29,181 nt of DNA, taken from the IMG/VR virus record IMGVR_UViG_3300038435_000221, positions 1 to 29,181 of that record, one strand, 5' to 3'. Positions 8,576-28,770 of the stretch are shown here, piece after piece. Below the pieces are notes generated by a model. That model had not been told where the DNA came from. It was given only the letters and a program-made list of their open reading frames with translations, and searched no databases. Position 1 is the stretch's first letter, and every line of letters starts with the position of its first letter. The DNA is from a virus. The translations under genes were made by a program, and so were the position numbers.

Positions 8576-8794
8576 ATGTTCAAATTTTTAAAGTTTGTAA
8601 GTATAGAGAAATACGAAAACCAAAAAGCATTAACCCAAACCTGGAAAGATAAATTCGATAAACAAATTCAAGCACATCAAAATACCATCTTAGTTAAAGA
8701 CAAAGCCTATAGAGAATTAAAAGCACTCTATGATGATGCAATTAAAAAACTTGAAGACATGAAAGAGAATGAAAAAAAAGGAACTGCAGAATGA
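8576..8794 (+). CDS. Small coiled-coil protein (72 aa)
   Basis: A 72-residue, charged, helical protein whose residues about 15-70 form a long helix, probably a coiled coil, rich in Lys, Glu and Gln. No family recognised. It has an excellent AGGAG ribosome site and shares an ATGA overlap with the co-chaperonin gene. In the rightward early operon, so a small accessory of replication or host takeover. Confidence 0.65.
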   Translation: MFKFLKFVSIEKYENQKALTQTWKDKFDKQIQAHQNTILVKDKAYRELKALYDDAIKKLEDMKENEKKGTAE

Positions 8795-9651: not shown

Positions 9652-10014
9652 ATGCCCCTCATCAATACGTTGCGATATTTAAGAAAAAAAAAGAAATGGT
9701 CGCGTGATTTTGTAGCGGTTGAAAGTAATATATGCGTGCGTATTATTCGCTATTATGAAGTAGGGGCAATTTCTATTTCTCTAAAAAATGCAGAACGTTT
9801 ATCCGAATTATTCGAAGTAGATGCGAGTCTTATCGTAGGTAAAAATCAAAAAGTATTTATCTCAGATGAAGAATATGAAGAACTGATCCCTCCTTTAACG
9901 CATAGGGAAATGCTGATGACTAAAATGCAGCAATTTATTAGTGGAACTTTACCCAAATGTTCACTTAAGGAAATTTACATGGAGGTGATTGTTAATGGTC
10001 ATAAAGGTGATTAA
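9652..10014 (+). CDS. XRE-family HTH regulator, candidate late activator
   Basis: A 120-residue protein. Residues 1-65 are a lambda-repressor-type (XRE) HTH domain: LRYLRKKKKWSRDFVAVESNICVRIIRYYEVGAISISLKNAERLSELF. The C-terminal half (about 70-120) is helical, with an acidic SDEEYEEL stretch, and has no peptidase domain. The ribosome site is weak. It is the last gene of the rightward early operon, the position where lambdoid phages put their late regulator, and it stands directly before the late promoter region that holds the first copy of the 29-bp repeat. A role as late-gene activator is therefore an attractive inference, not shown by the sequence. Confidence 0.75.
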   Translation: MPLINTLRYLRKKKKWSRDFVAVESNICVRIIRYYEVGAISISLKNAERLSELFEVDASLIVGKNQKVFISDEEYEELIPPLTHREMLMTKMQQFISGTLPKCSLKEIYMEVIVNGHKGD

Positions 10015-10101
10015 TGTTTTTAGAAAATAATTTTAGAAATTCAAACTTTTTTATTGCCCTAGCCCAACATTTAATGCCTGATTCTACGATTTATTCAAAA
10101 T

Positions 10102-10130
10102 AAATAATAAATACCATTCAAATATTGCCA
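10102..10130 (+). repeat. 29-bp late element, copy 1
   Basis: AAATAATAAATACCAT, two variable bases (TC), then AAATATTGCCA. A second copy at 23823-23851 matches at 27 of 29 bases. This copy ends six bases before the -35 of a putative promoter. It is a candidate activator-binding site for late genes. Confidence 0.6.
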
Positions 10131-10135
10131 CCTCC

Positions 10136-10164
10136 TTGACTTCTAAATAGTTTGATATTAATAG
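10136..10164 (+). promoter_or_regulatory. Putative late promoter
   Basis: -35 TTGACT (10136-10141), 17-base spacer, -10 TAATAG (10159-10164), with an alternative ATATTA -10 at 10155. The weak -10 plus an upstream repeated element suggests an activator-dependent promoter for the virion genes starting at 10190. Confidence 0.45.
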
Positions 10165-10189
10165 CGCAATTTCAATTAGTTAGCGCTGT

Positions 10190-10417
10190 ATGCCCAAAAG
10201 TCTAACAGAAATACGTAAAGAACCCGGAAAAAGTAATGCCTATAAATACAAAGGCGTTGCCAAAAAAGACTTCGCTGGTCCCAGTGAAACTTACCCAATC
10301 AATACATTAAAACGCGCTAAATCAGCAATCAAATTAGCTCATAACTCCCCTCAAGAAGAAAGTATCAAAGCACGAGCGCGTGCTAAATACCCACAACTCA
10401 AAAAAGGTAAAAAATGA
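10190..10417 (+). CDS. Small basic late protein (75 aa)
   Basis: A 75-residue basic protein. The section KDFAGPSETYPINTLKRAKSAIKLAHNS, followed by a basic ARARAKYPQLKK end, matches a small domain common in phage genomes near capsid or decoration genes, of the form 'F.gP..tyPI....A..A......., i..rA...yP'. Its role is unknown. It is the first gene of the virion operon. The ribosome site is weak, and the start is near the expected 5' end of the transcript. The stop overlaps the next gene (ATGA). Confidence 0.7.
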   Translation: MPKSLTEIRKEPGKSNAYKYKGVAKKDFAGPSETYPINTLKRAKSAIKLAHNSPQEESIKARARAKYPQLKKGKK

Positions 10418-10548
10418 AAAAGCCCTCAGTAAAACACATCGACGAAGAAGCTGATAAAAAACTAGTTAATAAGATGCTCAAAAAAGAACGTGCGCGCGAT
10501 AAAAAAGATGATGCACGGCAAATGAAAAAGATGATGCGCAAGAAATAA
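10414..10548 (+). CDS. Small Lys-rich protein (44 aa)
   Basis: ATG 10414 to TAA 10548 encodes 44 residues, nearly a third of them lysine or arginine (KKLVNKMLKKERARDKKDD, KMMRKK end). It is coupled to the preceding gene by an ATGA overlap, which makes it credible despite its length. It is probably helical. Possible DNA contact through its charge; no family recognised. Confidence 0.55.
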   Translation: MKKPSVKHIDEEADKKLVNKMLKKERARDKKDDARQMKKMMRKK

Positions 10549-10568
10549 CGGTTCCGAAAGGCTTATAT

Positions 10569-11048
10569 ATGTGCAATTTTGTTCCAACGGATGAACAGCG
10601 TAAAACTGCTTCACATTTATTATCACATGGCATATCCGGGGATAGAGCGCGTTTAAAAATAATTAATCCCAGAACTAATAAACCCATCGATAAAGATACT
10701 TTTTATAAAGTATTTGCACGTGAGGTTGAATTAGCTGGATTGGAAAGAACAGGTCTTGTCGTTGATCGGCTTTATGAAAAAGCCTTGGAAGGGGATGTAG
10801 GTGCAATTTCTAAATATCTCTCTCTTCAAGGACGTGGAGCATTTAATAAACGCTTTGAATACAATCCCGATGACCCTCCCTCTAAACAAATAGCTTCTGT
10901 AATCAAAGCAAGTTCTGATGGAATTATAGGCGCTCTTGAAACTTCTGAAATCGTTAATGCCATAGCAAAACTCGTGACCGTCGTTGAAGTTGAAGAACTC
11001 AAAAAAGAATTTGCTGAACTTAAGAAACTCATGAGGAAGAAGAAATGA
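10569..11048 (+). CDS. terS: Terminase small subunit
   Basis: A 159-residue protein. The N-terminal half has an HTH-like DNA-binding part, and residues about 75-95 (GDVGAISKYLSLQGRGAFNKRFE) match the typical TerS segment that follows it. The C-terminal part (about 105-159) is helical, ending in a Lys-rich coiled-coil stretch suited to oligomerisation and contact with the large subunit. TerS recognises the packaging site and regulates the large subunit. It overlaps the large-subunit gene by ATGA (11045-11048), the classic TerS-TerL pair. AAAGG precedes its ATG. P22 gp3 is the functional counterpart, although sequence is not clearly similar. Confidence 0.8.
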   Translation: MCNFVPTDEQRKTASHLLSHGISGDRARLKIINPRTNKPIDKDTFYKVFAREVELAGLERTGLVVDRLYEKALEGDVGAISKYLSLQGRGAFNKRFEYNPDDPPSKQIASVIKASSDGIIGALETSEIVNAIAKLVTVVEVEELKKEFAELKKLMRKKK

Positions 11049-12571
11049 GTTTAAACGCATTCAGAAATGAAATCAAAAATTTTAAAAACCAATATTTTTA
11101 TGAAGCGCAACTTCCTGATATACAAATCAGTGATGATTATTATCTAACACAAACTCAGAACAGTCGTTTTTATGTTCCATCGCCAACGGGACTTGAGTTT
11201 CACAAAGATGATTCATTTTTTAAAGTGATCATGGGTCCTTTTGGATCAGGTAAATCTGTTGCGTGTTGCCATGAAATCATATTTAGAGCTTTTGGTATGC
11301 CAAAGTGTATTGATGGCATAAGGCGTTCTAAATGGTGTGTTGTACGTAATACCTATCGCATGTTGGAAATATCAACAGTACGTACATGGCTTGATTGGTT
11401 TGCCCATTTAGGTGAAGTGAAAATCACACAAAAACCCCCTTATTATTTTTGCGAGTTTTGGGACGATCAAGGGAAGATAGAGTTAGAAATTGTATTTCTA
11501 GCTCTAGATCGCCCAGGACAATTAGAGAGTTTAAAGTCTGCTGAATTTACCGGTGCTTGGCTGAACGAATTATCAGGATTACAAGAAGCCGTATTTCAAT
11601 TCATGAAGGGCCGTATTAATGGACGTTATCCATCAAAATCAATTTGTACAGAACCCTATTGGACAGGAATTATTGCAGATACCAATCCACCTAATACCAG
11701 GAGTTGGGTCTATCGGATGTTTGAAAAAGAAAAACATCCAGAATTTAGAATGTTCAGACAGCCAAGAGGATTGATTAAGAATTCAAATGATCAATGGATT
11801 GATAATGTTGATGCAGATAATAAAAAGAATTTAGCACCTGATTATTATCAAAAAATGACTCTGGGTGCGTCTGAAGAATTTATAAAAGTATTTTGCTTGG
11901 GAGAGTATGGTTCTGTCTTAGATGGTAAACCCGTATATGCCGAATATAACGATGACATTCATAGTATTAACGGTCTTAAGCCCATTCCTGAAAATTATAT
12001 TTATACCGGTTGGGATTTTGGACTTACTCCTGCATGTGTGGTTGCTCAACGCAATGTTAATGGGCGCATTCATATTTTAAAAGAATATGTTTCACAAAAC
12101 ATGGATCTTGAGCAGTTTATAAAAACAATTGTTAAACCGCGTTTAGCTGTTGATTTTAAAGATTGTATTGTCCATGAGGGATGGGCAGATCCTGCAGGTA
12201 CTCAAAAGGCACAAACGGACGGATCAACGTGTTTAGCCATTTTAAATAAATATGGATTTAATGTATCTCCAGCGCCATCTCAAGATCCAATTGTACGTCA
12301 AAAAGCAGTTCACGATTATTTGAATTTAATGATTGATGGTAAACCAGCGCTCATAGTGAATAGAGATGGATGTCAATTATTAAGAGAAGGTTTTCAGGGT
12401 GGTTATCAATATCGAAAACTTCATACGATTCAAGGTGAAAAATTCGCTGATTTTGTAGAAAAGAATGAATATTCACACCCTCATGACGCTTTGCAATACC
12501 TAATGTTGGGTATATCTGGTTATATCCCCGAAAAAGAACGTACGCAAGTTATTTACTTTGATGAGTTTTAA
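11045..12571 (+). CDS. terL: Terminase large subunit
   Basis: A 508-residue packaging motor, close to the usual 490-500. The ATPase part has Walker A at G64-PFGSG-K70-S and a Walker B-like AWLNE175 (residues 171-175). The nuclease part shows the RNase H-like triad: D324 in GWDFG, D382 in ADPAG and D481 in HPHDALQY. It pumps DNA into the procapsid using ATP and makes the packaging cuts. Its context, between the small subunit and the portal, is that of P22 genes 3-2-1. Nothing looks truncated. Confidence 0.95.
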   Translation: MSLNAFRNEIKNFKNQYFYEAQLPDIQISDDYYLTQTQNSRFYVPSPTGLEFHKDDSFFKVIMGPFGSGKSVACCHEIIFRAFGMPKCIDGIRRSKWCVVRNTYRMLEISTVRTWLDWFAHLGEVKITQKPPYYFCEFWDDQGKIELEIVFLALDRPGQLESLKSAEFTGAWLNELSGLQEAVFQFMKGRINGRYPSKSICTEPYWTGIIADTNPPNTRSWVYRMFEKEKHPEFRMFRQPRGLIKNSNDQWIDNVDADNKKNLAPDYYQKMTLGASEEFIKVFCLGEYGSVLDGKPVYAEYNDDIHSINGLKPIPENYIYTGWDFGLTPACVVAQRNVNGRIHILKEYVSQNMDLEQFIKTIVKPRLAVDFKDCIVHEGWADPAGTQKAQTDGSTCLAILNKYGFNVSPAPSQDPIVRQKAVHDYLNLMIDGKPALIVNRDGCQLLREGFQGGYQYRKLHTIQGEKFADFVEKNEYSHPHDALQYLMLGISGYIPEKERTQVIYFDEF

Positions 12572-12573
12572 TT

Positions 12574-14706
12574 ATGGCAAAAAATAAGAAAAATACTAAA
12601 GGTTTAGAAAAGCGTAATGAAAAGATCAATGCTTGGTTTGATTATTTTTCAGATAACATTCAAACCTATACCAATAACATTGAATTTGTAGAGGGTTCAC
12701 AATGGAATCCTGATGAAGTTGCTTATTATGCTGCAAATGGTAAAACCCTTCTTACTGATAATGTACTCAATAAATTTGTAAAACAAATCATTGGTGAACA
12801 ACTAAAAACCACCCCTGAGATGCAGGTGGTGGTTGATAGTGATCAGGTAAATCAAAAGAAAGTTGCAATCCGTTCTGATTTATTGCGCACAATTCAAATA
12901 AAGAACCACGCCAAAGAGTGTTACGAAATCGCTATCGAATGTTCGATGAAAGGGGGGTTCGGTGCTCTATGGGCTTATAACGATTATGACGATGGCATAA
13001 CCTTTCAGCAGGTTGTTAAACAAGAACCTATCAAAAATCCTACTTTATGTTTTTGGGACCCAAAAGCAAAAAATAAAACTAAATGCGATGGGGATTACTG
13101 CGGGATGATTGACTATATGCGCAAATCTGAATTCAAGCGCAAACATCCCAATGCTGAACCAACATCTGAAGGATGGAATTCAGATCAAGTTGATTTAGAT
13201 CGCATTATGTTAGAAGAGGATGATGAACTCATTCCTATAGCAACCATCTACGAAAAGCGCTTTTTTAAAAAAAGAATTCTTTTGGTAAAACCCACTATAT
13301 CAGGGAAAGAATTTGATACTGTTCCTGCTGATCAATTTGATGAATACAAACAGCAATATTTAAACAATATCCAATACATCAATGAAATATTGGGTATGAG
13401 TCAATCTCTTCAAGAGCCGCAAGTCATAGATGAACGGATTGTTGATGATTATAAAATAAAGTGTTATCGCCAAACTAAAGTAGAAGATCTCGAAGAATAT
13501 GAATTCCCTGCGCGTGATTTACCCATTCAATATGTAGATGGGTATAGCTATTACGATAAAGGTAAGCAAACCATTAAATCTTTTACGCAAGATGCACATG
13601 ATGCTCAAAAACTAGTTAATTATATTTATTCAGAAATTGGTCAAGCCGTACGTACTTATCAGCGTGTAACTATCATTGGCACGCAAAAGATGTTCAATGG
13701 CGCATTAAAGCAAATGAAGAATCCAGAAAAGCCTACTGCGTTCTTACCTATTGAACCTGATCCGGCATTTAACGGTGGGGTGCCAATGATTACCGACCCA
13801 CATCCTGTGCCGGCAGAATTGTTTACAGCCTACCAAATGGCTGTTGCTTCTATACAAGATATTTTAGGGCGTACTGAGGCCTCTATGGGAGATCCTGGTA
13901 ATGAGATTTCAGGCGTTGCTATAGAAAATCGCATTATGCAACAGAATACTGTTGTAAATAAGTGGTTTGATGGTCTTTTAAAAGCCATAGAACAACAAGG
14001 TCGTGTAGTTAATCAATTGATCAGTAATCTTTATGATCAACCTCGTTCAATGATGCTCTATAAAGAAAATAATAAAGCTTATAACGCCAATCTCAATCAG
14101 TTTAATCACCAAACAGGAGAAGTTGATAACGAAATCACAAATGAAGATTTTGAAATCAGAATTTCTGTAGGCGCTAATTACGAAATGATGCGTCAACAAG
14201 AGCGTCAATATCTCTTAGATATTTTACAACAATCTCAATTACCAGCTTTTGCGAAGATAGGGCACTTAATCGCTAAATTATCTGATACACCGATTATGCC
14301 GCAAGTGGTTCAAGCCATTGAAACCATGATTGATCCACAAGTATTGGCTAAAGAAAAAGGATTGCCACCACCACCACCACCTCCCCCTCCTCCACAAGTA
14401 ATGCTTGAACAACAAAAGATTCAGGCAGATATGCAAGCCACGCAGGTAAAAGTTATGCAAGCTCAAATCGACAAGATGAAAGCTCAGATGGAATTTTTAA
14501 TGAGTATTTCCGAATTACAAGGTAAGGGTGTTGAAGCACAAGCAGAGGTACAAAAAGCTGCTATGGAAGCCGGAAGAGATTTATCGCAACACCACGTCGA
14601 TATGGTTGGACATGGTGTAGAGACCTTAGGTCACTTAAAAGATTTAGCTGCGTTATCGCAGCAACCATCCACACAGCAGGAGTTAAATGCTGGAGCGCAA
14701 ACGTGA
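12574..14706 (+). CDS. Portal protein (P22 gp1-like)
   Basis: A 710-residue portal, matching the length of P22 gp1 (725). The N-terminal half carries the portal core (YAANGKTLLTDNVLNKFVKQIIGEQ; GGFGALW). About residues 595-605 are a run of ten prolines, followed by a long Gln/Met-rich coiled coil (about 610-690), the equivalent of the P22 barrel helix. It forms the dodecameric ring through which DNA enters and leaves. It starts two bases after the terminase stop. Confidence 0.9.
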   Translation: MAKNKKNTKGLEKRNEKINAWFDYFSDNIQTYTNNIEFVEGSQWNPDEVAYYAANGKTLLTDNVLNKFVKQIIGEQLKTTPEMQVVVDSDQVNQKKVAIRSDLLRTIQIKNHAKECYEIAIECSMKGGFGALWAYNDYDDGITFQQVVKQEPIKNPTLCFWDPKAKNKTKCDGDYCGMIDYMRKSEFKRKHPNAEPTSEGWNSDQVDLDRIMLEEDDELIPIATIYEKRFFKKRILLVKPTISGKEFDTVPADQFDEYKQQYLNNIQYINEILGMSQSLQEPQVIDERIVDDYKIKCYRQTKVEDLEEYEFPARDLPIQYVDGYSYYDKGKQTIKSFTQDAHDAQKLVNYIYSEIGQAVRTYQRVTIIGTQKMFNGALKQMKNPEKPTAFLPIEPDPAFNGGVPMITDPHPVPAELFTAYQMAVASIQDILGRTEASMGDPGNEISGVAIENRIMQQNTVVNKWFDGLLKAIEQQGRVVNQLISNLYDQPRSMMLYKENNKAYNANLNQFNHQTGEVDNEITNEDFEIRISVGANYEMMRQQERQYLLDILQQSQLPAFAKIGHLIAKLSDTPIMPQVVQAIETMIDPQVLAKEKGLPPPPPPPPPPQVMLEQQKIQADMQATQVKVMQAQIDKMKAQMEFLMSISELQGKGVEAQAEVQKAAMEAGRDLSQHHVDMVGHGVETLGHLKDLAALSQQPSTQQELNAGAQT

Positions 14707-14738
14707 AGCTTAAAACACGGTGATAAATAGGAGAAATT

Positions 14739-15851
14739 ATGAACACAAAATCAAATAATGCGGGTCAATTAAGTCAGGATCAATTGGATCAGCAAGAACT
14801 TGATAGAGCTTTTAATGAAATGAACGGTATCAAACCCGAAGATGCGGCACAAACGCCAGAACCTCAACAAGAGGAGGTTTTAGACGATATACTGCCGGCA
14901 AATGAAGGGGAAGTTGATACTACAAATGATGATCTTCTTACTGAAGTTTCTGAAGAAGCGCAAGAAAAGCCTGAGGGTGATGTGCTTGAGGATGACGAGA
15001 AGAAGGACGAAGCAAAATCAGATGATTATGTGGATTTAGAAAATTCTCCTATAGAAGATGACGAAACCCTGATTAAACCTGATGATCCAGTCGGGGTACA
15101 AAAACGTATCGGTAAGGAAGTTCAACGCCGTAAGGTATTGGAAGCAGAAATTGCGCAGATGAAAGCTCAGCAAGAGCAATTGATGCGCATGGTGATGGGG
15201 CAAACGCCTAATAGTGTAGTACCAGGAATGATGCCCACTATGCAGCCTAATGTTGCGCAACAACAGCAACAAGTGCCATTTGTACCTCCTCCACTACCAA
15301 AACCTTATGAAGAGATGAATGAATTTGAACGCTTTGAATATTTCAACCAGGTAAAAGTGGCTGAAGCACAAGCAAAACAAATGCATTCACAGCAACAGGT
15401 GCAACAGCAAAGACATCAAGCTGATTTAGGAAAAGTCTTAAATCAATTGAGACAAAACCTTGATGATCCAGTCATTAATGAACTCTATACAAAAAATGGA
15501 GGGAATTTAACTGAGCACATGCTTGCGCCTTTAGTGGACTACAAAAACGCTGCGTCATTGATTCGTTATTTTCACGTAAAGCACAACGCAGAGCTGGCCT
15601 TATTAGCGACGAAACCTCCTCATGAGCAAGCAAGAGGGATCGTTCGCTTAGCTGAACGCGTAAATCTTGAAAGAAGACAATCTTTTGAGAAAAAAGCAAA
15701 TGCTAAAAAGCCAGTTCCTGCGGGAAAAACAACAAGTGCCGCTGCACCAAAAGCATTTGCTAAGAAGGATATTTATTCCGATCAGGCATTGTTAGAAAAA
15801 GCAGCGGGAAATCCAAAACTTTGGGATCAATTAATAGCAAAGGGCTATTGA
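14739..15851 (+). CDS. Scaffolding protein (P22 gp8-like)
   Basis: A 370-residue protein with the expected scaffold layout: an acidic, Glu/Asp-rich front (about 20-125), a helical middle rich in Gln (KRIGKEVQRRKVLEAEIAQM, then QQQQVPF and QQQVQQQRHQ), and a basic end (KKANAKKPVPAGK, then a short amphipathic helix LWDQLIAKGY) for coat binding. P22 gp8 has 303 residues; similarity here is architectural more than by sequence. Position between portal and coat is the same as in P22. It directs assembly of the procapsid and then leaves. Good AGGAG ribosome site. Confidence 0.8.
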   Translation: MNTKSNNAGQLSQDQLDQQELDRAFNEMNGIKPEDAAQTPEPQQEEVLDDILPANEGEVDTTNDDLLTEVSEEAQEKPEGDVLEDDEKKDEAKSDDYVDLENSPIEDDETLIKPDDPVGVQKRIGKEVQRRKVLEAEIAQMKAQQEQLMRMVMGQTPNSVVPGMMPTMQPNVAQQQQQVPFVPPPLPKPYEEMNEFERFEYFNQVKVAEAQAKQMHSQQQVQQQRHQADLGKVLNQLRQNLDDPVINELYTKNGGNLTEHMLAPLVDYKNAASLIRYFHVKHNAELALLATKPPHEQARGIVRLAERVNLERRQSFEKKANAKKPVPAGKTTSAAAPKAFAKKDIYSDQALLEKAAGNPKLWDQLIAKGY

Positions 15852-15871
15852 TCTCCCGCTAGGAGAAAATA

Positions 15872-17137
15872 ATGACAATTACAGTTCCAAGTTATGCGTC
15901 ACCTACATTAGTTGCTAAACGTATTGCGCAGTGGTTTTACACCATGAGCCCAATTGTTAAAACGGCTTATAAAGGTTATGCAAATATGTTCGACAATAAC
16001 AAACTTTCAACACCAGGCACTACTTTTAACGTAGCGTTGGATAACCGTTTTACTTTGCAACGAAGCGATGCGATTACGCTAGAAGGTATTGTTGATAGAA
16101 CGGTACCTGTAACCGTACAGAACCCTTATCGTATGGGTGCTGCATATACTACAACTGCACAAAAATTATTGATTCGTGATCTTGATCAGCAAACGATTAA
16201 GCCCATGTCTGCAACAATCAGTGCGGGTATCGAACAGGATCTCATCTCTCAATTTGAGTTATATGGTTATAATTTCCAAGATTTTACAACCACTTATAAT
16301 TCAAGCACATCGGGTATTTTGGATACACCAGCAAAAGTAGGCCAGATTGCTACTTTCTTCAGAGAGTATTCAATTGATGCTGTTATTCCCTGGTATGGTT
16401 CTATTCGTCCCAATAACTATCAAGCAATGGTTGATGGTTTCCCATCTTCCTTCTATCCAAAAACCAACGATAGCGTATTGCATGATGACATCAAATCTAA
16501 AGATGTTAAACGCATCAATAGTTTTGATTTAATGTGGTCAGAAGTACTCTATAAACACGTTGGTGGTACAGCTGGTGGAGCAACAGGCGTAACTTTAAAT
16601 GCAACCGTATCAAGCGGTACAAGCATTACACTTGCGGGTTTAACCCCGGGTCTAACTTTTGCAGTAGGTGATCGTTTAGTATTTCCTGCATCTTATAAAG
16701 TTAATCCAGTAACACGCGATGATATTACTAACTCAAACTTCCAAGCTGTTGTAGCCGCAGCTGCGACTGTAGGTGGTGGTGGTACTGTTACCTTAACCAT
16801 TTATGTAGGTCCAGGTGGTCTGAATGCTAATACAGATGATCCAAATAGAAACTTAAATCGTGCTTTAACTTCGGGCGATTCAGTGCAGATTATTAGTGAA
16901 TTCTGCTTAAACTGTTTCTATACAGGTAATGCTGTATTGTTTGCGCCGATCGATCAAGCTGCATTTGATGTTGCACCAAATCAACGTGGCGCTGAGAGTG
17001 ATCCGCACAGTAAGTTGAAATTCCGCGTAACTTACTTCCCTTCCCCAGGTACAAACCAAAATACCGTCTATGTCGATGCATTGATGGCAATGGGTATTGC
17101 TCCTGAAGGAACAAGCATTGCATTAACTGATAACTAA
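15872..17137 (+). CDS. Major capsid protein (P22 coat gp5-like)
   Basis: A 421-residue HK97-fold coat protein of the P22 type (gp5 has 430). The start TVPSYASPTLVAKRIAQWFYTMSPIV and the segment GTTFNVALDNRFTLQRSDAI..VPVTVQNPYR are typical of this family. About residues 225-345 correspond to the inserted beta-barrel (I-domain) of P22-type coats: alternating beta strands and glycine turns. The C-terminal part (PGTNQNTVYVDALMAMG) is the P-domain strand set. It forms the icosahedral shell on the scaffold. Strong AGGAG site; good codon use, as expected for the most abundant virion protein. The co-chaperonin encoded at 8791 could help it fold. Confidence 0.92.
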   Translation: MTITVPSYASPTLVAKRIAQWFYTMSPIVKTAYKGYANMFDNNKLSTPGTTFNVALDNRFTLQRSDAITLEGIVDRTVPVTVQNPYRMGAAYTTTAQKLLIRDLDQQTIKPMSATISAGIEQDLISQFELYGYNFQDFTTTYNSSTSGILDTPAKVGQIATFFREYSIDAVIPWYGSIRPNNYQAMVDGFPSSFYPKTNDSVLHDDIKSKDVKRINSFDLMWSEVLYKHVGGTAGGATGVTLNATVSSGTSITLAGLTPGLTFAVGDRLVFPASYKVNPVTRDDITNSNFQAVVAAAATVGGGGTVTLTIYVGPGGLNANTDDPNRNLNRALTSGDSVQIISEFCLNCFYTGNAVLFAPIDQAAFDVAPNQRGAESDPHSKLKFRVTYFPSPGTNQNTVYVDALMAMGIAPEGTSIALTDN

Positions 17138-17156
17138 TGCTTTAAGGGGATAGATC

Positions 17157-17936
17157 ATGCCAGTAATGACCGTCAATAGTTTAGCGTTTGTGAGAGAGGC
17201 CTATGAATCATGGGGGATTATCAGTGATTTTGATACATTGTCTGATCCCATGTACGTCAGAGGATTATCTTATTTAAATCAAATTCTTGCTAAAGATCAG
17301 GCTAATGGCATATCTATCCCTGCTTATGCGCAATTGAATTTTAATTTAATTGCAGGACAAGCATTTTATGAAATATCCAATAATATAGGTGCCGAGGTTG
17401 CATCAAATCCACTTATGGATTTGGAAGACGGCGTCATCCTTTATTCAAATTTGATTCAATATCCAATTTTAGATGTTAAGAGATCCGAATTATTAGGGAT
17501 TCCATTAGCCGTTAATACTCAGTCGTGGCCTTCTCAAATGCTCTTGTATAAATTCAAGCGAATAACAGGAGATAGAGATGCACCTATCGTTACGATGTCC
17601 GATGATCCAAATAGTTGTGTATTACGTTTTTATCCAGTTCCATCACAAACTTTTCCAGTAATTATTTATGCAAAAAGGGTATTAGATAGTGTTGAAAAAA
17701 ACCAAGATATTTCTATTCCTCCTCATATGCTTATGTATTTACGTTATAGCTTGGGACAAGAGCTCACGCGTAAATATGAAAACTCTGTATGGAAGCCAGA
17801 GGATACACAAACGCTTATAGAATTAAGAGAGATGTTTAAGTCGGGGAATGAAATTGATAATTCCCTTGATCAATCCCCAACGTTGCAATCTGGTGCGCCA
17901 AGTCGCCCGATGGCTACCAATGTGCCTTATTACTAG
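17157..17936 (+). CDS. Head-tail adaptor (P22 gp4-like)
   Basis: A 259-residue protein. Its front matches the gp4/tail-accessory-factor pattern: an N-terminal helix, LNQILAKDQANGISIPAYAQLNFNLIAGQAFYEI, with the Trp/Gly and gly-gln-Y motifs of that family. It is longer than P22 gp4 (166), with an extended C-terminus that is Ser/Pro-rich. It joins the portal to the tail and closes the head. It sits between coat and the plug protein, as in P22. The family assignment is by pattern and position; other head-tail connector families would look similar. Confidence 0.7.
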   Translation: MPVMTVNSLAFVREAYESWGIISDFDTLSDPMYVRGLSYLNQILAKDQANGISIPAYAQLNFNLIAGQAFYEISNNIGAEVASNPLMDLEDGVILYSNLIQYPILDVKRSELLGIPLAVNTQSWPSQMLLYKFKRITGDRDAPIVTMSDDPNSCVLRFYPVPSQTFPVIIYAKRVLDSVEKNQDISIPPHMLMYLRYSLGQELTRKYENSVWKPEDTQTLIELREMFKSGNEIDNSLDQSPTLQSGAPSRPMATNVPYY

Positions 17937-17945
17937 GATAACGCT

Positions 17946-19412
17946 ATGCCAAAGGTTAATTTTCCAGTAGTAGGTACATTTGCGAGGGTCAAGCAGCGAG
18001 GTATTACCCCTGAGAGTACGATCAATATGTATCTTATCAATCAGGGAAATGAAAAAGTTCCAGATACACTCATTAATGTACCTGGTTTTATAAGTTTAGA
18101 AAATACACCTTATTTTCCGTTTGGTGAAGTTGGTCGAATGCTTTATGTAGATGATCAACAAACAATTTACGCGGTTGTAAGTGAATATGTATATAAGCTA
18201 ACAACAACTTTCGAACCGATTTTATTGGGGACGCTTACGACAGATACAGGTTATGTGGATATTGAAGGAAATAATTCTGATCAAATTATGTTTGTAGACG
18301 GCGCTAATGGTTACATTTATAACATAACGACAAACACTTTTGGAAGAATTACTGATCCTGATATTTTACCAAGCCCACAATCAGTAGCATTCTTAGATGG
18401 GCGATTTATTATCAATAGTGCGGGCACAAATCAGTGGCAAATCTCAGATTTAAATGATGGTACGAGTTGGGATGCTTTAAATATTCAAGAACTTGAAACA
18501 CAAAAAGATACGATTCAAGCAATTGCTGTTAATCAACGTATTATCTTTTTATTTGGAAATCAAGTTACTGAATGTTGGAATGATGTAGGAAATCCAGATT
18601 TTCCTTTTGCGCGTTTAGATACCATGAATTTCCAGGTGGGCGCAGCATCGACTGCTTCTGTTACTCAAGCAGAAGGCTTATTGTTTTGGTTGGGTAGATC
18701 AACAAATGGAACTGCATCTGTGATGTTAAGTGATGGGGGTATGCCCATTGCTGTCAGTACCGTAGATGTTGATCAAGAAATAAATAATTATGCCTTAACC
18801 ACTGATTGTGAAACTTACTATTTCAGAGAAAACGGTTATACGTTTTTGGCGGTTAATTTTACAACCGAAGATCAGAGTTGGTTATATAACGTTACCAATC
18901 GTACGTGGACAAAACAGAGTACGCATGAGGGTAATAGACATCGCATTAAAACCATTATTAATTATGGTGAATTGAATTATGCACTTTCCTATGATGATGC
19001 TGATTTTTATGAAGTTTCTCAAGCGTATAACACTTTTGATGGCGATCCTATTGTTAAAGAGCGTATTACGCATAGATTTTTTGATCAAACTTTACGTGAT
19101 ATAAAAGTTTCATATATCGAAATTGATTGTTTACACGGTTTTGCCCCGCAAGCAGGTTCTCCTGAAAATCCCAATTATTCTGCCGATCCTTTTCTAGAAT
19201 TATCTGTATCAAAAGATGCGGGTATTACTTTTGGTCCTAATGTCAGGGCTCCTATTGGCCGTGTTGGTAAAAGAGGCGTAAAGACATATTGGCACAATCT
19301 GGGAATTAATAAGGATTTTGTATTTAGGTTTAGATGTTATGCAAACGTAGATTTTTATTTAAGAGATATGTCGATTTTATACAGTTTAGCAGGGCCTCAA
19401 GGAAGAAGTTAA
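17946..19412 (+). CDS. Packaged-DNA stabilisation protein (P22 gp10-like)
   Basis: A 488-residue beta-propeller-like protein, matching P22 gp10 (472) in length and in the N-terminal signature FPVVGTFARVKQRGITPESTINMY. Repeated blades are visible as Trp/Asn turns (FGNQVTECWNDVGNPDFPF, LFWLGRSTNGTASVMLSDGG). It builds the tail hub that plugs the filled head. It overlaps the next gene by one base (TAATG). Adjacent to the gp4-like gene, as in P22. Confidence 0.85.
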   Translation: MPKVNFPVVGTFARVKQRGITPESTINMYLINQGNEKVPDTLINVPGFISLENTPYFPFGEVGRMLYVDDQQTIYAVVSEYVYKLTTTFEPILLGTLTTDTGYVDIEGNNSDQIMFVDGANGYIYNITTNTFGRITDPDILPSPQSVAFLDGRFIINSAGTNQWQISDLNDGTSWDALNIQELETQKDTIQAIAVNQRIIFLFGNQVTECWNDVGNPDFPFARLDTMNFQVGAASTASVTQAEGLLFWLGRSTNGTASVMLSDGGMPIAVSTVDVDQEINNYALTTDCETYYFRENGYTFLAVNFTTEDQSWLYNVTNRTWTKQSTHEGNRHRIKTIINYGELNYALSYDDADFYEVSQAYNTFDGDPIVKERITHRFFDQTLRDIKVSYIEIDCLHGFAPQAGSPENPNYSADPFLELSVSKDAGITFGPNVRAPIGRVGKRGVKTYWHNLGINKDFVFRFRCYANVDFYLRDMSILYSLAGPQGRS

Positions 19413-19708
19413 TGTTTAATCAAATAAGTATTCAAAATCAAATAAGACCCCCCTTACAAGATGAGGTAGTGGGAACAGATCGGATCGTGACAAGCATATG
19501 GTTACGCTATTTTAATAATTTATATCAGCTATTAGTTGCCATCTTGCAGAAGGGTATCAGTTTGCCATCATTAACAACATCGCAACGCGATAGTGATTCT
19601 TCTTATAACCAACAAAGATGGTTATACATCACCGATGCAGCAGCCGGTAAAGAAGTACAAATAAATATCAATGGAATTTGGTATTACGCAACATTAACGG
19701 CTGTTTAG
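19412..19708 (+). CDS. Small tail protein of unknown role (98 aa)
   Basis: A 98-residue protein starting at ATG 19412, which overlaps the gp10-like stop (TAATG). A longer reading upstream (19334) is unlikely because it overlaps that gene. Residues about 20-50 (SIWLRYFNNLYQLLVAILQKG) resemble the small phage proteins that precede ejection or fibre genes, followed by a beta-rich GKEVQININGIWYYATL end. P22 has its tail needle gp26 and gp14 in this slot; this protein is much shorter and lacks a needle-like coiled coil. Confidence 0.6.
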   Translation: MFNQISIQNQIRPPLQDEVVGTDRIVTSIWLRYFNNLYQLLVAILQKGISLPSLTTSQRDSDSSYNQQRWLYITDAAAGKEVQININGIWYYATLTAV

Positions 19709-19717
19709 GAGAGTTTT

Positions 19718-20440
19718 ATGTCATGGCAAGCATCTATTCAACAAATGTTTAATAACCCCGATAATTCTCTTAATTCTATTAATCCAGGAGGAAGTAGCGC
19801 ATCGATGTTCACGATGAATCCCTGGATGATGGGGGGCGCGGGATTAGCGAGTTTATTGGGAGGTATTTTTAATAAAAGCGGCGCTGATAATCTGGGTAGT
19901 AATATCCGACAGGGCATGGGAGATATTACCAATTATGCAAATCAGGGGTTGGCATTTTTAGATCCTTATAATCAAGCAGGTCAAGCTGCGCTGGGTCAAT
20001 ATAGTCAAGCGCTTAATGGAATGTCTAATCCTGTTGATTATGTAAATAACATTATGGGTCAGTATAAACAGTCTCCTCAATCTCAATTCAATACGCAAGA
20101 AATGTTGAGAGCGGCAAATAATGCATCAGCTGCAAGCGGACAATTAGGATCCCCTGCTGAACAGATGGCAATTAGTAGATATCAAAATCAAATTGACAGC
20201 ACAGATCAACAGCAATTTTTGAATAATGCATTGGGGGTTAATTCTCAATATATGGGAGGATTACAAGGTTTAGCTGGTATGGGTTATGGTGCAGCGGGTC
20301 AAATGAATCAAAATCGTTTAGGTTTGGGAGATGAAATGGCCCAAATGTATCAAAACTTAGGCATGGCTAATATGTATGGAAATCAATCCATGGGTAGTGG
20401 TATTGGAGGATTTTTAGGCGGTTTAGCGAGTTTATTATAA
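19718..20440 (+). CDS. DNA ejection protein (P22 gp7-like)
   Basis: A 240-residue protein, like P22 gp7 (229) in size and place. It is rich in Gly, Asn, Gln, Met and Ala, with a hydrophobic Gly segment (WMMGGAGLASLLGGIF) near residue 40, helical low-complexity middle and a second Gly/Leu-rich end (GIGGFLGGLASLL). Such features are typical of ejected internal proteins that enter the host envelope to let DNA through. Three ejection proteins follow each other, as in P22 7-20-16. Identification is from composition and position. Confidence 0.7.
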   Translation: MSWQASIQQMFNNPDNSLNSINPGGSSASMFTMNPWMMGGAGLASLLGGIFNKSGADNLGSNIRQGMGDITNYANQGLAFLDPYNQAGQAALGQYSQALNGMSNPVDYVNNIMGQYKQSPQSQFNTQEMLRAANNASAASGQLGSPAEQMAISRYQNQIDSTDQQQFLNNALGVNSQYMGGLQGLAGMGYGAAGQMNQNRLGLGDEMAQMYQNLGMANMYGNQSMGSGIGGFLGGLASLL

Positions 20441-20452
20441 AGGGGTAGGATA

Positions 20453-21565
20453 ATGGTAGCACCACTTGGACAATTACAATTAGCTAGTTCTTTGGAAAAT
20501 CCTGTATTAAGTGGATTTCAACAAGGATTACAAACAGCATTGTTGCCACAAACAACAGCCGCGGATATGGCTGCAAAAATGGCGCTTGCGCAATATAATC
20601 AAGCTCGGGGAGGATATTACGACCAATATGGTAATTATCGACAAGCGCAATCTGATTATTTGATACCTTCTCAGGCGCTCGTTAATCAGCAAAAGGCTAA
20701 TGTTTTATATCCTGCTATTGCACAGCAGCGCCAGGCGCAAGCACAACAAGTCCAAGCTTTAACGCAGCCAAAAGCTAATTTAGTACAAGCACAAACACAA
20801 CAAGCATTAGCAGGTGGGCCAAGAGGGCAATTAATTAATAATTTGCTAGCAAATCAAAATGGTCTTCCATCAAACATTGGGAATCAAGCAGCAATTGCTA
20901 CTGTTTTACAAGGGGCGACGCCTGAAGTAAAACGTAATTTTGCATATCAAGCTGCTCAAGGAAATATTCCATTACAACAATCCATTCAGGGTGCTAATTT
21001 AAAAGCTACTAGTAATCAACAATTATTGCGTCAGCAAGCAGCTATGGAACAATTCGATTCTGCTGTGCAACCTATGCTTCAAGATGTGGGTAATGCAGTA
21101 GCCCATTATAGTGGTCCTGGCGGTGCTTTAAGATTAAGAGGAGATCAATTAAAGCAAGCCAGTGGAGGTAAACCTTCTCCTGAATATAGTGCTTATTTAA
21201 CCGCTGTTCAAACACAAATACCTTTAATTGCTGATAATGCAAGAAAGGTTTTGGGTGCGCAAGCATCTGATGCTATGCAGGAACAATTACAGGGAATAGT
21301 TGGTCCAGGAGGTAAATTAGATATGAAAGCTTTTGCTTTAATGCCGCCTCAGGTTGTTTATGACAAATTAAATTCATTTAGTAATTATTTAACCAAAGAA
21401 GCCCAGGTTGGTAGAAATTTTGTAGGTCCATTAAGTTTAAACCCAGATAAACAAAATCCTATAGAAGCTCCAGAAAAAATTGGTCCTCAAACTGGCAATC
21501 CACCTCCGGGAATGTCAAAAGCAGAGTTTACAAAGTGGTATTTGCAGAATAATGGAGGGCGCTAA
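20453..21565 (+). CDS. DNA ejection protein (P22 gp20-like)
   Basis: A 370-residue, Gln/Ala-rich, largely helical protein (NQQKANVLYPAIAQQRQAQAQ region, about 75-110). It is shorter than P22 gp20 (471). Placed between the gp7-like and gp16-like genes and overlapping the latter by one base (TAATG), it should be the second internal protein released into the host during DNA entry. No enzymatic domain seen. The family link is by position and composition, so moderate certainty. Confidence 0.7.
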   Translation: MVAPLGQLQLASSLENPVLSGFQQGLQTALLPQTTAADMAAKMALAQYNQARGGYYDQYGNYRQAQSDYLIPSQALVNQQKANVLYPAIAQQRQAQAQQVQALTQPKANLVQAQTQQALAGGPRGQLINNLLANQNGLPSNIGNQAAIATVLQGATPEVKRNFAYQAAQGNIPLQQSIQGANLKATSNQQLLRQQAAMEQFDSAVQPMLQDVGNAVAHYSGPGGALRLRGDQLKQASGGKPSPEYSAYLTAVQTQIPLIADNARKVLGAQASDAMQEQLQGIVGPGGKLDMKAFALMPPQVVYDKLNSFSNYLTKEAQVGRNFVGPLSLNPDKQNPIEAPEKIGPQTGNPPPGMSKAEFTKWYLQNNGGR

Positions 21566-23613
21566 TGGCTACTCAATCTGATATTGATTCAGCTTATGAA
21601 AAATACCAACAACAAACAGCTTCTCAAAAAAATATCTCTTCCGATGATATTGATTCTGCTTATCAAAAGTATCTTAATGGACAATTAGATCAACAAGCTG
21701 CTAATTTTCCTCAGCCGCAATCAACAGCAGATAAAATAAGAGGACATTTAAAATCAGTTGGGGCCGGATTACTTCAACCTTCAATTAATTTGGCATCTGG
21801 TATTCAAACAGAGGTAAACCAAACTATAAAAGCTATTGATCCATCTTATCATATGATGACCCCTGTTAATGCAGACCCAAACTTACAACTTGTAGCTAAT
21901 GCTCCTAATCAAAGTGAAGCAAATCTCGCCCAAATACCTGGAGCTTTTTTAGCTCCAGGAGGAAATGCCGTAAAAGCTTTCGATACATTGAAAGGATCAA
22001 TAGGAGCTGCCGGTGCATTAGGAGGGTTATATGGACTAGGATATGGTAAAGCGGCGAATCCTGATAGTAGTAGTTTATACGATGTCGCAACTGGAATAGC
22101 TACGGGAGCAGGATTACAGGGGGCATTAAGAGGAATAGGAAGCGTTGCACAAAATCTTATTAATAAACCATTAACTAGAATTCAACAGCAGGCTGAAAAG
22201 GAAAAATCTTTCGGGGTTCAAAATAGACCATTAACTCCTGCAGAAGCAAAACAAAGACTGCAAACCGCACAACAAACTGGAATAAAACCTAGTTTAGGTA
22301 CTTTAACAAATGATCCTCAAAGTATTCAATCTTTCGAAAATTCTGCATTTACGCCATTTAATAATCAACAAACATATGCTGCAGAAAATATTGGGCGTGC
22401 TGATCAATTGGGCAGTGATATTTACAATGATTTAAATAGAGGGTTGAATAGAGAAGAAATTGCTCCTACGCTTACCAACGAAATTAACGATATTTTTAAC
22501 GCTAAAAAAGCTCAATCTAAAGAAAATTATGACAACTTAGCTAATATGGCAGATCAAGTAGGTGTGCAAGGTAATCGTTCAAATGCACAAGCTTATGCTT
22601 TGGACCAACTCAGTAAATATCAAAACGCCAAAAACATGGGTAAATTAACAGCGCTTGATCCTGATACCTTAGATATTTTAAAGACTGTTTCTAAAGACAT
22701 CACTCCTACTGAAGAAACACCTTATACCTTTTCTGATTTAAAAGATGAACGCAGCATTGTGGGGGAAAAACTTAATCAACTACGTGAGTCTAATCCCAAA
22801 GCAACCACCGCAGAAAACATATTAAATAATTTGTATAGTAAATATTCGGATGATATGAATGATACATTACAGTATGGAAGTTTTAGAAGTCAAGAATTAT
22901 TAGATTCTTGGAAAAAAGCCAATAATTTCCATAGAGATGAAGTAACCCCTTATTATCAAGGCAGATTACCTTATATCCTAAAAAATGAAACTCACGAAAA
23001 GATTACAAATGAATTAATTAATAATTCTAAATATAGGGATTTGATAGCATCTTTACCCGCTGATACTAAGAAGTTATTATTAGGTTCCAAAATTGCGTCA
23101 ACACTTCCTTCGGATGATTTTTCAGCCAATAAATTTTTGAGTGGATATAATAGAGTTGCTAAAACTGCTAATATTACTCCTCTTACCATGGGTCTTACTC
23201 AAAATATTAATGGAACAGAAATTCCTATTAAAGATGCCTTAGATAAATTGTCAACTATTTCAGAAATGAATGAACCATTAAAAAAGATAAAATCAACTAT
23301 TCCAACAGGATATGCTCTTAAAGGAGCACAACAAAGTGGTTTACCCGTGTCTTTAGGGGCGCTTATAGGTTTAGGTGCTCATGGGTCCTGGGGTGCATTA
23401 GCAGGAGCTGGAGCAGGTACAGCTTATGCTGGTATAAAAGGACGTTTAACTAGTAATTATTTGAAAAATCCTGAAGTATTACGGGCTTATTCTAATCCCC
23501 TGCAGAGAGCAGAAATCCTAAAAAATGCTTATCCATTGATCAATAAAGTACCGGCAAACTTACCCGCAGGACTTAACGCTATGTTAAATTATTTTATTAA
23601 TCAAAACCAATAA
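21565..23613 (+). CDS. DNA ejection protein (P22 gp16-like)
   Basis: A 682-residue protein, comparable to P22 gp16 (609). It starts with two copies of a short DIDSAYxKY motif (about residues 5-13 and 27-35). Gly/Ala-rich membrane-active segments occur at about 130-190 (GAFLAPGG, AAGALGGLYGLGYG) and near the end (LGALIGLGAHGSWGALAGAGAG). The rest is helical and charged. It probably forms part of the trans-envelope channel together with the two proteins before it. It is followed by a reverse-strand gene. Confidence 0.75.
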   Translation: MATQSDIDSAYEKYQQQTASQKNISSDDIDSAYQKYLNGQLDQQAANFPQPQSTADKIRGHLKSVGAGLLQPSINLASGIQTEVNQTIKAIDPSYHMMTPVNADPNLQLVANAPNQSEANLAQIPGAFLAPGGNAVKAFDTLKGSIGAAGALGGLYGLGYGKAANPDSSSLYDVATGIATGAGLQGALRGIGSVAQNLINKPLTRIQQQAEKEKSFGVQNRPLTPAEAKQRLQTAQQTGIKPSLGTLTNDPQSIQSFENSAFTPFNNQQTYAAENIGRADQLGSDIYNDLNRGLNREEIAPTLTNEINDIFNAKKAQSKENYDNLANMADQVGVQGNRSNAQAYALDQLSKYQNAKNMGKLTALDPDTLDILKTVSKDITPTEETPYTFSDLKDERSIVGEKLNQLRESNPKATTAENILNNLYSKYSDDMNDTLQYGSFRSQELLDSWKKANNFHRDEVTPYYQGRLPYILKNETHEKITNELINNSKYRDLIASLPADTKKLLLGSKIASTLPSDDFSANKFLSGYNRVAKTANITPLTMGLTQNINGTEIPIKDALDKLSTISEMNEPLKKIKSTIPTGYALKGAQQSGLPVSLGALIGLGAHGSWGALAGAGAGTAYAGIKGRLTSNYLKNPEVLRAYSNPLQRAEILKNAYPLINKVPANLPAGLNAMLNYFINQNQ

Positions 23614-23822: not shown

Positions 23823-23851
23823 AAATAATAAATACCATGTAAATATTGCCA
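23823..23851 (+). repeat. 29-bp late element, copy 2
   Basis: AAATAATAAATACCAT, two variable bases (GT), then AAATATTGCCA. It matches copy 1 (10102-10130) at 27 of 29 positions. It ends 22 bases before ATATTA (23873-23878), a possible -10 for the fibre genes starting at 23911. It lies just behind the divergent promoter of the moron. Confidence 0.6.
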
Positions 23852-23910
23852 TCTTACGACATCACTGAAGTCATATTAAATTTGGCTAAATTTATAATAG
23901 TAGCTAAAGA

Positions 23911-26508
23911 ATGTCTTTTGGCGTTTTTATACAGCCCAATCCAGTCTGGGCTTTTTTAGATCAAGCCGCTCTGCCAGCTGCAGGTGGATTTATCTATACC
24001 TATGAATCATCAGATCATCAGACACCTAAAGCTACTTATCAAAATAATGATTTAAACGCTCTTGTACCTTGGTCCAACCCTATTACCTTAGATGCAACTG
24101 GTAAACAAGCAGACGAAGCGACCGATATTTGTTATCCCATATTTTGGGCAGATGATGCGCCTTATTACATAGAAATTACCGATAGTGACAATAACATCAT
24201 ATTTCAAGGAGATGGTTTTCCTTGGAATGGTTCAAATGAACCTGTTATAAGTGAAATCGATATTGAAAACTATTTTATTAACGCTCAACTCTATTTTGAT
24301 AATGCTGAAGTCATAGATACTGATGGTGATAGAGGGTTTAATGATTTACCCGCATCGGAATTGAGTATTGCGCCTGATAATTGGTTTTTTATCAAAAATA
24401 ATACATCAGCTACCGATACTATTACTATTGTTGACTTTAGCGCGGGTCAAACTGAAGTACTCAATAATCCCAAAGCTTATTTTATTTATAATTGTACAGT
24501 CCCTGGAACTTCAGAAACCCAGAAAAAATATTATTACAAATTTGGATCTGTAAGACAGTTTGCGAATGAAACTATAAATATACAGTTTTACGCTAGGTCT
24601 ACGCTCTCAAGTCAATTATCGGTAACGTATACACAGTATTTTGGTACCGGAGGATCTCCCTCAGCAACCAATACTCAACCTATTACCACGCAAAGTTTAA
24701 CGGGTAATTGGGTTATTTATCAGGTCTCTGTCGAAATTGATGATCTTACGAGTAAAAATATTGGTACTAATGGAGATGATTATTTATCCATTGATTTTAA
24801 TATGCCATTTAATAGCGTTGCCAATGTGCAATTATCAAATATGTGTTTACGTTTCGGCGATACTTTTATAGATATTCAAGAAGAATCTGTAAATATTACT
24901 TCGGAAGAAATAAAAGCATCTTCATTACCCTTACCACGTTCTGTTAACTGGGATGATGGTAATTATGAGTTGATGATGATTTCAGGGGTGCAAACATGGG
25001 TTGCCTGTGCGGGAAGGGGGTGTGAATGGTACACGAATGCTGCACCAAGTTATGCATTATTACAAAACGGTTTGCCTTATTATTCTTCACAATACTATAA
25101 CTTAGCGAATTATTTATATCAGTCTTCTAGTTTGTCCTTACCTTTTTCGTATGGCCCTCAAGGATTTACGGTATCAATTGCCACCGCAACACTTACTATA
25201 ACTTGCGTAACAAATGGTGCTGTTACTTCTGGATCAGCAGGAACTTCTGGATTCTCTTTTACTCAAACCAGCAATGGTAGTGGCTCGACTCCTGGAATAG
25301 TGACTCTTGTTGTTAATGCTGCATCTACTATTTTGCCTGGAGAGTATTTTTTAATAAATAGTCCTTCAACGAGTTATTTTGTTTATTTTAGTCAAAATAA
25401 TGAGACGAAAAATCCACAAGCAACGACGCCGGCTTTGAGTGGGAAAACCGCAATAAAAGTTTCGTATACAGGTTCAGAAACAGATGCACAGTTAGCGGCG
25501 CTAATATTAATCCAATTAGAAATCGCTCATTTTAGGGTTCCTGATCAACGCGGTTTAACAAGCCGTATGCCAGATTTTGGTGCAACTGCTGTATTCCCTG
25601 TTGCTTCTCAATTAAAGATTAGGTCCTTGGGTAATGATAGTGGCGTAACTTTTGCAATTGTGGGATTAGATGTAAATGGTGCTGCATCATCAGAAAACCT
25701 AACGGGTGCAAATGTTGGAACAGCCACCTCTGTTAATACTTATTCAGCAATAACATCAGTAACGCCTAATATAAATACGGCATCTTTTGTTGCGATGGGT
25801 GATTCAACCTTAACGCAAGGTATTTCTCAATTCCAGTTGGGTTTTGCAAGTGTACCTACACCATTAAATGGTAATTATGGTCGCGATCCTGATTACTATA
25901 CGCAGTCTGGTTTTTGGGCTTATTATCCGATTTATTTGAATCAAGTAACTCCGGGAGTAACTCCAGCTGATGATCAAACAGGAGATTATATTGCTATTGT
26001 TTCAGTAGGAAATGATTCCGGTATAAATTTTGTTATCAGGGGATATACCGATAATGGTGCTTATGCTGTAGAAACAATAGCAGGTACTAATGCGGGAACT
26101 GTACCATCTGCAAATCTTTATTCTATTGTTATATCTATCACTCCTACAGGAAATACAGCATCGACAGTAACTGCTAAATTTTTCAATCATGGAATAGCAG
26201 ATGGTATTTGTTTATCTCAATCTGGAACAACTAATACCGCTTTAAATATCAATGGTGCTTATGCGGCTTATCCTGCAAACGCTCGTACTTCTCTTTATGC
26301 AGGTGGTGCTAAGGGCGACAACGTTGGTTCATTACAAATAGATTCTATTCGTGCACACGAGCACTCATTCCCAGAAAGCGGTGGCGCAGGGATTAAAGGA
26401 TTTAGTTCTGCAGCCAGTGATGGATTCTCTACCTTTAGCACACAACCGAACTATGGAAATGAAACACGTATTAAAAATATTTACGTTAACAAGATTATTT
26501 ATTTTTAA
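23911..26508 (+). CDS. Tail fibre / receptor-binding protein
   Basis: An 865-residue fibre. The first ~105 residues match the common phage fibre start (NPVWAFLDQAALPAAGGFIYTYES, then ATGKQADEATDICYPIFW, then YIEITDSDNNII), which attaches to the virion. The middle is beta-rich. Two copies of a beta domain (about 575-629 and 701-757) share NDSGxxF, NGA, GT, YS.I.SITP.xNTAS. The end (residues about 800-865) is a collar-type tip: RAHEHSFPESGGAG followed by NETRIKNIYVNKIIYF, like the T4 gp12/collar-domain NGGET.KNI motif. It likely binds the receptor. Ribosome site is weak (AAAGA). Confidence 0.75.
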   Translation: MSFGVFIQPNPVWAFLDQAALPAAGGFIYTYESSDHQTPKATYQNNDLNALVPWSNPITLDATGKQADEATDICYPIFWADDAPYYIEITDSDNNIIFQGDGFPWNGSNEPVISEIDIENYFINAQLYFDNAEVIDTDGDRGFNDLPASELSIAPDNWFFIKNNTSATDTITIVDFSAGQTEVLNNPKAYFIYNCTVPGTSETQKKYYYKFGSVRQFANETINIQFYARSTLSSQLSVTYTQYFGTGGSPSATNTQPITTQSLTGNWVIYQVSVEIDDLTSKNIGTNGDDYLSIDFNMPFNSVANVQLSNMCLRFGDTFIDIQEESVNITSEEIKASSLPLPRSVNWDDGNYELMMISGVQTWVACAGRGCEWYTNAAPSYALLQNGLPYYSSQYYNLANYLYQSSSLSLPFSYGPQGFTVSIATATLTITCVTNGAVTSGSAGTSGFSFTQTSNGSGSTPGIVTLVVNAASTILPGEYFLINSPSTSYFVYFSQNNETKNPQATTPALSGKTAIKVSYTGSETDAQLAALILIQLEIAHFRVPDQRGLTSRMPDFGATAVFPVASQLKIRSLGNDSGVTFAIVGLDVNGAASSENLTGANVGTATSVNTYSAITSVTPNINTASFVAMGDSTLTQGISQFQLGFASVPTPLNGNYGRDPDYYTQSGFWAYYPIYLNQVTPGVTPADDQTGDYIAIVSVGNDSGINFVIRGYTDNGAYAVETIAGTNAGTVPSANLYSIVISITPTGNTASTVTAKFFNHGIADGICLSQSGTTNTALNINGAYAAYPANARTSLYAGGAKGDNVGSLQIDSIRAHEHSFPESGGAGIKGFSSAASDGFSTFSTQPNYGNETRIKNIYVNKIIYF

Positions 26509-26521
26509 AGGAGTTTATTAA

Positions 26522-27193: not shown

Positions 27194-27222
27194 AAATTAA
27201 TTAAAACACAGGAGTATTAAAA

Positions 27223-28239: not shown

Positions 28240-28274
28240 ATCTTTTAATAATTAATTTAATACAGGAGAAAAAC

Positions 28275-28769: not shown

Positions 28770-28770
28770 T

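Follow-up and report, generated by a model that had tools for sequence, protein, structure and literature searches.

Copies of a single 29-bp element, AAATAATAAATACCAT-N2-AAATATTGCCA, precede both late gene blocks of a temperate P22-type podovirus prophage, and the element is best explained as an upstream site for a phage-made activator of both blocks, a reading that we consider probable. Its two copies are unique to these places and equally spaced from the start codons that follow them; a close relative carries an analogous element of different sequence in the corresponding positions, and hairpins lie directly ahead of the late start codons of both phages. The timing of late genes in non-lambdoid temperate podoviruses has been little studied, and in this prophage the element, its putative reader and the leader hairpin can each be named to the base.

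The prophage and its repeated late element

The window, i.e. the whole 29,181-nucleotide stretch of DNA that was analysed, comprises bases 52-29232 of a 198.8-kb contig from a genome of 1.97 Mb. It is a temperate P22-type podovirus prophage, whose left end may have been lost at the end of the contig. Public phage records yielded no match to its DNA, and their proteins were at most 39% identical to those of the prophage. In addition to small early genes, the following features were located (window coordinates):

5441-6139, minus strand: gene for a CI-type repressor with a peptidase S24 domain
9652..10014, plus strand: gene for an XRE/HTH_3 protein of 120 aa (Pfam HTH_3 3.5e-06), the candidate late activator
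10102..10130, plus strand: element copy 1, AAATAATAAATACCATTCAAATATTGCCA, exactly 88 bp ahead of the ATG at 10190 of the first late ORF
10190..23613, plus strand: late block 1 with the packaging, head, head closure and ejection genes
11045, within late block 1: TerL gene
12574, within late block 1: P22-type portal gene (Pfam P22_portal E 8.8e-93), accompanied in this block by the scaffold, coat, head closure and ejection protein genes
23619-23759, minus strand: ORF of 46 codons between late blocks 1 and 2
23823..23851, plus strand: element copy 2, AAATAATAAATACCATGTAAATATTGCCA, exactly 88 bp ahead of the ATG at 23911 of the tail-fibre gene
23911..29181, plus strand: late block 2 with the tail-fibre gene (starting at 23911; phrog_4492) and subsequent genes
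about 29018-30307 (window numbering): integrase gene, which overlaps the window end and continues beyond it

Several further features were noted in the prophage. Palindromic sites, TTACCYATRGGTAA, are situated at 4188-4201, 4213-4226 and 6232-6245 (a weaker one at 6155), around the CI gene and those early genes that run leftward, and are probably CI/Cro operators. A GroES-like co-chaperonin gene was detected at 8791-9075 (PHROG E 1e-18; NCBIfam GroES E 3e-15), and four 23-bp direct repeats (6812-6903), possibly origin iterons, lie within ORF 6475-7227, which is likely a replication gene, judged by its place. At the distal end of this early-left region (113-2015, minus strand), two genes resemble by eye a pair of MoxR-type AAA ATPase and VWA-like protein, with weak NCBIfam matches to AAA only, and 12-bp tandem repeats (GCCATA/GCCATC) were seen at 43-100, just beyond the end of ORF 113-1210.

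The first-pass annotation of this DNA had described a duplicated element whose copies differ in N2 alone and lie just ahead of the late gene blocks, and both points held on re-examination. The copies are identical at 27 of 29 bases, with N2 reading TC in copy 1 and GT in copy 2, and are embedded in an extended match of 39 bp with 87% identity (10095-10133 / 23816-23854). The annotation had further judged such conservation unlikely to arise by chance, which was borne out by a match score of 26.5 for this intergenic pair, compared to a maximum of 14 in 300 shuffles. No third copy with up to three mismatches was found in the window (mean of 0 expected from 100 shuffles). A search of the rest of the 1.97-Mb assembly and of 51 related genomes did not reveal the element either, leaving two copies in 2 Mb with none of the scattered copies that would count against the first-pass reading, and its exact 25-bp core was absent from IMG/VR. 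Among the between-gene repeats of the prophage, the element ranks first, and a pair of repressor-operator-like sites was the sole other one reported.

Late block 2 plausibly needs a start of its own, because the minus-strand ORF 23619-23759 separates it from block 1. This ORF has a good to strong promoter (TTGACT-16-TATAAT, minus strand, 23819 to 23792), and its product, which contains a hydrophobic N-terminal stretch, is possibly a membrane protein expressed in the lysogen. Copy 2 adjoins this promoter, and the element could thus be conceived as an operator through which CI, Cro or the XRE protein silences the late promoters or, at copy 2, the minus-strand gene in the lysogen. XRE proteins are often repressors, and ATACCAT and AATATTGCC in the element come near half of the TTACCYATRGGTAA sites at 4188, 4213 and 6232. 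However, this resemblance is short and could be due to chance, the element has no inverted half, a minus-strand gene of that kind is missing at copy 1, and direct repression of late promoters by CI would be unusual. An operator function is, in our view, unlikely.

The element of a close relative and the candidate reader

A close relative was found in IMG/VR (3300042923_000644, 25.6 kb; G052, consisting of L005 and L014) and is described here in late-gene orientation. Its late region is syntenic with that of the window phage, with protein identities of 63% for TerL, 51% for the portal and 58% for the coat protein. The window element was absent from L005, the TerL-containing part of G052, at up to nine mismatches. 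G052 carries an element of its own, AAAGTACCACTATGAA, which is 16 bp long and present in exactly three copies, all of them on the late strand:

3629-4012 of L005, minus strand: XRE protein gene, divergent from the late block
4074, late strand: G052 element, 71 bp ahead of the first late ORF
17558, late strand: G052 element, 70 bp ahead of the tail-fibre gene
21956, late strand: G052 element, 73 bp ahead of a third late gene, at a further late block, after two minus-strand genes

AAAGTACCACTATGAA is the best between-gene repeat in G052, and chance was ruled out by a shuffle test. In the window phage as well as in G052, the phage's own element is found ahead of each late unit and nowhere else. 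Because different repeats occupy corresponding places in syntenic late regions, each phage appears to mark the starts of its late units with its own element. A TACCA core is common to both elements (TACCA and TGCCA in the window element); it is short, and its sharing may be due to chance. Three of the five copies are placed after minus-strand genes or a divergent regulator, where a transcript from upstream could not simply continue. The comparison of the two phages suggests a trait of the lineage as a whole, namely a late-promoter element that is repeated and co-diverges. Such a pattern of phage-specific elements has the look expected of a promoter element that co-evolves with a dedicated DNA-binding protein. 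With only one close relative available, two phages are the whole basis for the co-divergence of element and protein. The late-activator site that had been suggested in the first-pass annotation is partly supported overall; the position of the element, its exact copy number and, above all, the relative's own repeated element speak well for it.

Searches of IMG/VR and genome contigs with TerL, portal and coat proteins returned G052 as the only close relative; those with the XRE protein returned none, and no close genome came up when the search was widened to order, class and phylum. A clear counterpart of the repeated intergenic element was found neither in G053, BcepC6B, Hodr, Pmp11, MEP301 and Vibrio D478 nor in the prophages of G151, G199, G210 and G367. 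The repeats of G199 were rejected as a counterpart, since they are long and palindromic and hence of another kind: in its prophage region, L055 and L056 contain long exact dispersed between-gene repeats of the short palindromes TTGACACATAAGTGTCAA and AAACTCATTATTGAGTTT, located at about 7.6 kb and 20.6-21.2 kb on the reverse strand. Exact matches of the G052 16-mer in other IMG/VR contigs were also discarded, being single ones in about the number expected by chance (own estimate). In the early region of G052 (L005 171-684), an ORF pair was observed that resembles, by eye, the BrnT/BrnA toxin-antitoxin system.

In both phages, an XRE gene is positioned just ahead of the late block, on opposite strands. 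The two proteins align over nearly their full length (24% identity, E 2e-07) and share the motif QK-(V/I)-x-ISD-(D/E)-EY, which lies outside the HTH. In lambdoid phages, this slot ahead of the late block is the place of the Q antiterminator. The protein in this slot matched HTH_3/XRE only, with no Q-family match and, for the window protein, no antiterminator match in PHROGs or NCBIfam; its AlphaFold model (mean pLDDT 53) was too poor for a fold search. Based on its position and its co-divergence with the element, the XRE protein encoded at 9652-10014 is probably the one that binds the element. Most XRE proteins act as repressors, and palindromes are the rule among their sites; the 29-bp element is not palindromic, and the XRE gene is oppositely oriented in the two phages, all of which counts against an XRE activator as its reader.

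Promoter signals and leader hairpins

A consensus scan of the plus strand passed no -35/-10 pair between either copy and its ATG. The weak -10 proposed for both copies in the first-pass annotation is accordingly uncertain, its common register being ambiguous: +21, +26 and +42 compete in the window (p 0.38). In G052, the best common register is +19 (TAAAAA, TACACT, TAGCAT), clearly ahead of the next one (p about 0.15 compared to shuffles). For the window, the +26 register was chosen because it matches the best register of G052 in its position with respect to the hairpin. The resulting candidates and the adjacent hairpins are as follows:

10156..10161, plus strand: candidate -10 of copy 1, TATTAA, 26 nt past the element, in an ambiguous register
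23877..23882, plus strand: candidate -10 of copy 2, TAAATT, 26 nt past the element
10162..10188, plus strand: leader hairpin 1, UAGCGC...GCGCUG, -8.5 kcal/mol, ending 1 nt ahead of the ATG (p 0.008 compared to shuffles)
23881..23908, plus strand: leader hairpin 2, UUUGGCUA...UAGCUAAA, weak, ending about 3 nt ahead of the ATG (p 0.086 compared to shuffles)
G052, three leader hairpins: CCCUUG...CGAGGG; UCGCUUAAAA...UUUUAGGCGA; CAUCUCACUAG...CUAGAGAGAUG

A perfect TATAAT at 23893-23898 competes with the candidate -10 of copy 2. TTGCCA, with which the element ends, was considered as a -35 and rejected, since a spacing of 17 bp leads to only a poor -10 in each copy (TAGTTT, AGTCAT). With -10 sequences at +19 (G052) and +26 (window), RNA would start at +31 and +38, respectively (near 10168 and 23889 for the two window copies), which in each of the five leaders is within the hairpin's 5' arm or just past it. 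In this register, the element would span about -66 to -38 in the window and -46 to -31 in G052, beside or over the missing -35.

The lack of a convincing sigma-70 -35 on the plus strand would also suit an element that itself acts as a core promoter for a single-subunit RNA polymerase or a sigma factor encoded by the phage. Transcripts would then begin at the element or immediately beyond it, with the hairpin as an ordinary stabilising structure of the 5' leader. The length and sharp conservation of the element are fitting for a polymerase promoter, its distance to the ATG is constant, and TACCACTATGAA in G052 resembles T7-type promoters by eye. However, the window element is unlike a T7-type promoter, and no RNA polymerase was recognised among the window proteins scanned; the RNA polymerase family PF00940 was not found in the genome, in a weak test whose controls did not register and for a prophage possibly cut at the left end of the contig. 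In addition, a temperate phage with CI and an integrase usually uses the host polymerase. We thus consider a core promoter improbable and favour an upstream activator site.

The 3' arms of the hairpins stop 1-4 nt short of the ATG in all five leaders (one of the hairpins being weak), and their arm sequences are unrelated, structure but not sequence being common to the five. The dinucleotide-shuffle tests, with the p values listed above for the window and values of 0.019, 0.002 and 0.009 for G052, gave a combined Fisher p of 2.8e-06 (0.006 for the window pair alone, 4e-05 for G052 alone). The leader hairpins also stood out in comparison with other start codons: p was 4.6e-05 for 31 further ones in the two phages and 5.8e-05 for 27 in the host that have intergenic leaders (part of the host contig reads N). 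In more distant phages, hairpins precede late genes in some cases, but not systematically. A role as terminators was rejected, given the lack of a T run after any of them, as was a shared operator in the hairpin arms, given their unrelated sequences. When the leaders were truncated in simulations to the putative RNA starts, the opening energy of the start region decreased in all five cases, from 10.2 to 5.7 and from 5.1 to 4.5 kcal/mol in the window and from 12.7 to 5.9, 10.3 to 5.1 and 11.2 to 3.8 kcal/mol in G052, corresponding to 4.5-7.4 kcal/mol in four leaders and 0.6 in the fifth.

There is a substantial chance, if somewhat below an even one, that these hairpins have no regulatory role, being chance or generic leader structures, and that the element alone matters. 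The hairpins were noticed by eye first and tested afterwards, the one at window copy 2 is weak, and the start sites are putative. On the other side stand the presence of a hairpin at the same place in five of five leaders, combined statistics that are strong against three null models, and the purine-rich ribosome-site sequences of G052, which sit in the 3' arm of the hairpin. Very unlikely, by comparison, is a function of the element in RNA, where upstream transcripts running into the late blocks would carry it as a signal for processing or, in the manner of nut/qut, for antitermination loading. Its fixed distance to the ATG and the hairpins nearby are compatible with such a signal, but the element itself lies outside any predicted structure. 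The processed RNA signal considered in the first-pass annotation is unsupported for the element; the hairpins downstream of every copy are a separate RNA-level feature, which that annotation had not noted. Moreover, Q or N family matches were not obtained, and there is nothing nearby to antiterminate, because a terminator is missing between either copy and its ATG.

A proposed late switch and its relation to known systems

In the activator model, the element would be bound by a DNA-binding protein of the phage, with the XRE protein as the likeliest one, which would bring the host RNA polymerase to the weak -10 that closely follows, and the head/packaging block and the tail block would be switched on together. 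In read-through RNA from upstream, the hairpin would cover the ribosome site, whereas RNA from the late promoter, starting within the hairpin, would be without the 5' arm and would be translated. By analogy with phage T4, the hairpin may therefore serve to hide the ribosome site from unscheduled transcripts. Taken together, these steps would constitute a double lock on the late operons of a temperate podovirus, consisting of a co-diverging activator/element pair and a hairpin, with XRE control replacing Q antitermination; we put this forward tentatively, as possible rather than probable. In the double-lock reading, the hairpin would silence transcripts read in from outside, and therefore only late-promoter RNA would be translated. 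A limited literature search found no double lock on the late operons of temperate phages. The arrangement would bring together, in a temperate podovirus outside the lambdoid group, late promoters marked by an activator site and leader hairpins of the T4 kind. For an integrated prophage, transcription from neighbouring genes is a standing risk, and the model, if true, would extend the anti-read-through device of T4 to the late operons of such a prophage. The element and the XRE gene would then form a compact and specific activator-promoter pair, for which the different element of G052 provides a natural swap test.

As in the control of lambdoid phages and P22 by Q, a regulator gene is located just ahead of the late block, and the portal and head genes are of the P22 type. 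The arrangement differs in that an XRE gene takes the place of Q and in that two separate late elements are present as opposed to a single PR'. LfsT, from a prophage region of Pseudomonas aeruginosa, is likewise an XRE protein; it promotes lytic growth and binds at phage promoters, but its sites, NAACN(5,8)GTTN, are partly palindromic, unlike the prophage element (PMC9769523). The late promoters of phage Mu (lys, I, P, mom) are similar in that several late units share a repeated activator site upstream of a non-consensus promoter, with the C protein binding ahead of the -35 where the promoter elements deviate from the consensus (PMC4461284); in the prophage, activator and promoter are putative. 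C is not known as an XRE relative of the prophage's protein, and element sequence and gene order differ between the two phages. The hairpins, finally, resemble those of T4 e and I-TevI, where a hairpin covers the ribosome site in early RNA, and of soc and 49, which are named beside them: a hairpin in the start region is combined with a late promoter placed such that late RNA lacks the 5' arm (PMC3014915, PMC2988022), as it would from the candidate starts in the prophage. T4 reads its late promoters (TATAAATA) with its own sigma factor gp55, the RNA starts in the prophage are putative, and the prophage hairpins, unlike those of T4, head whole late blocks of an integrated prophage.
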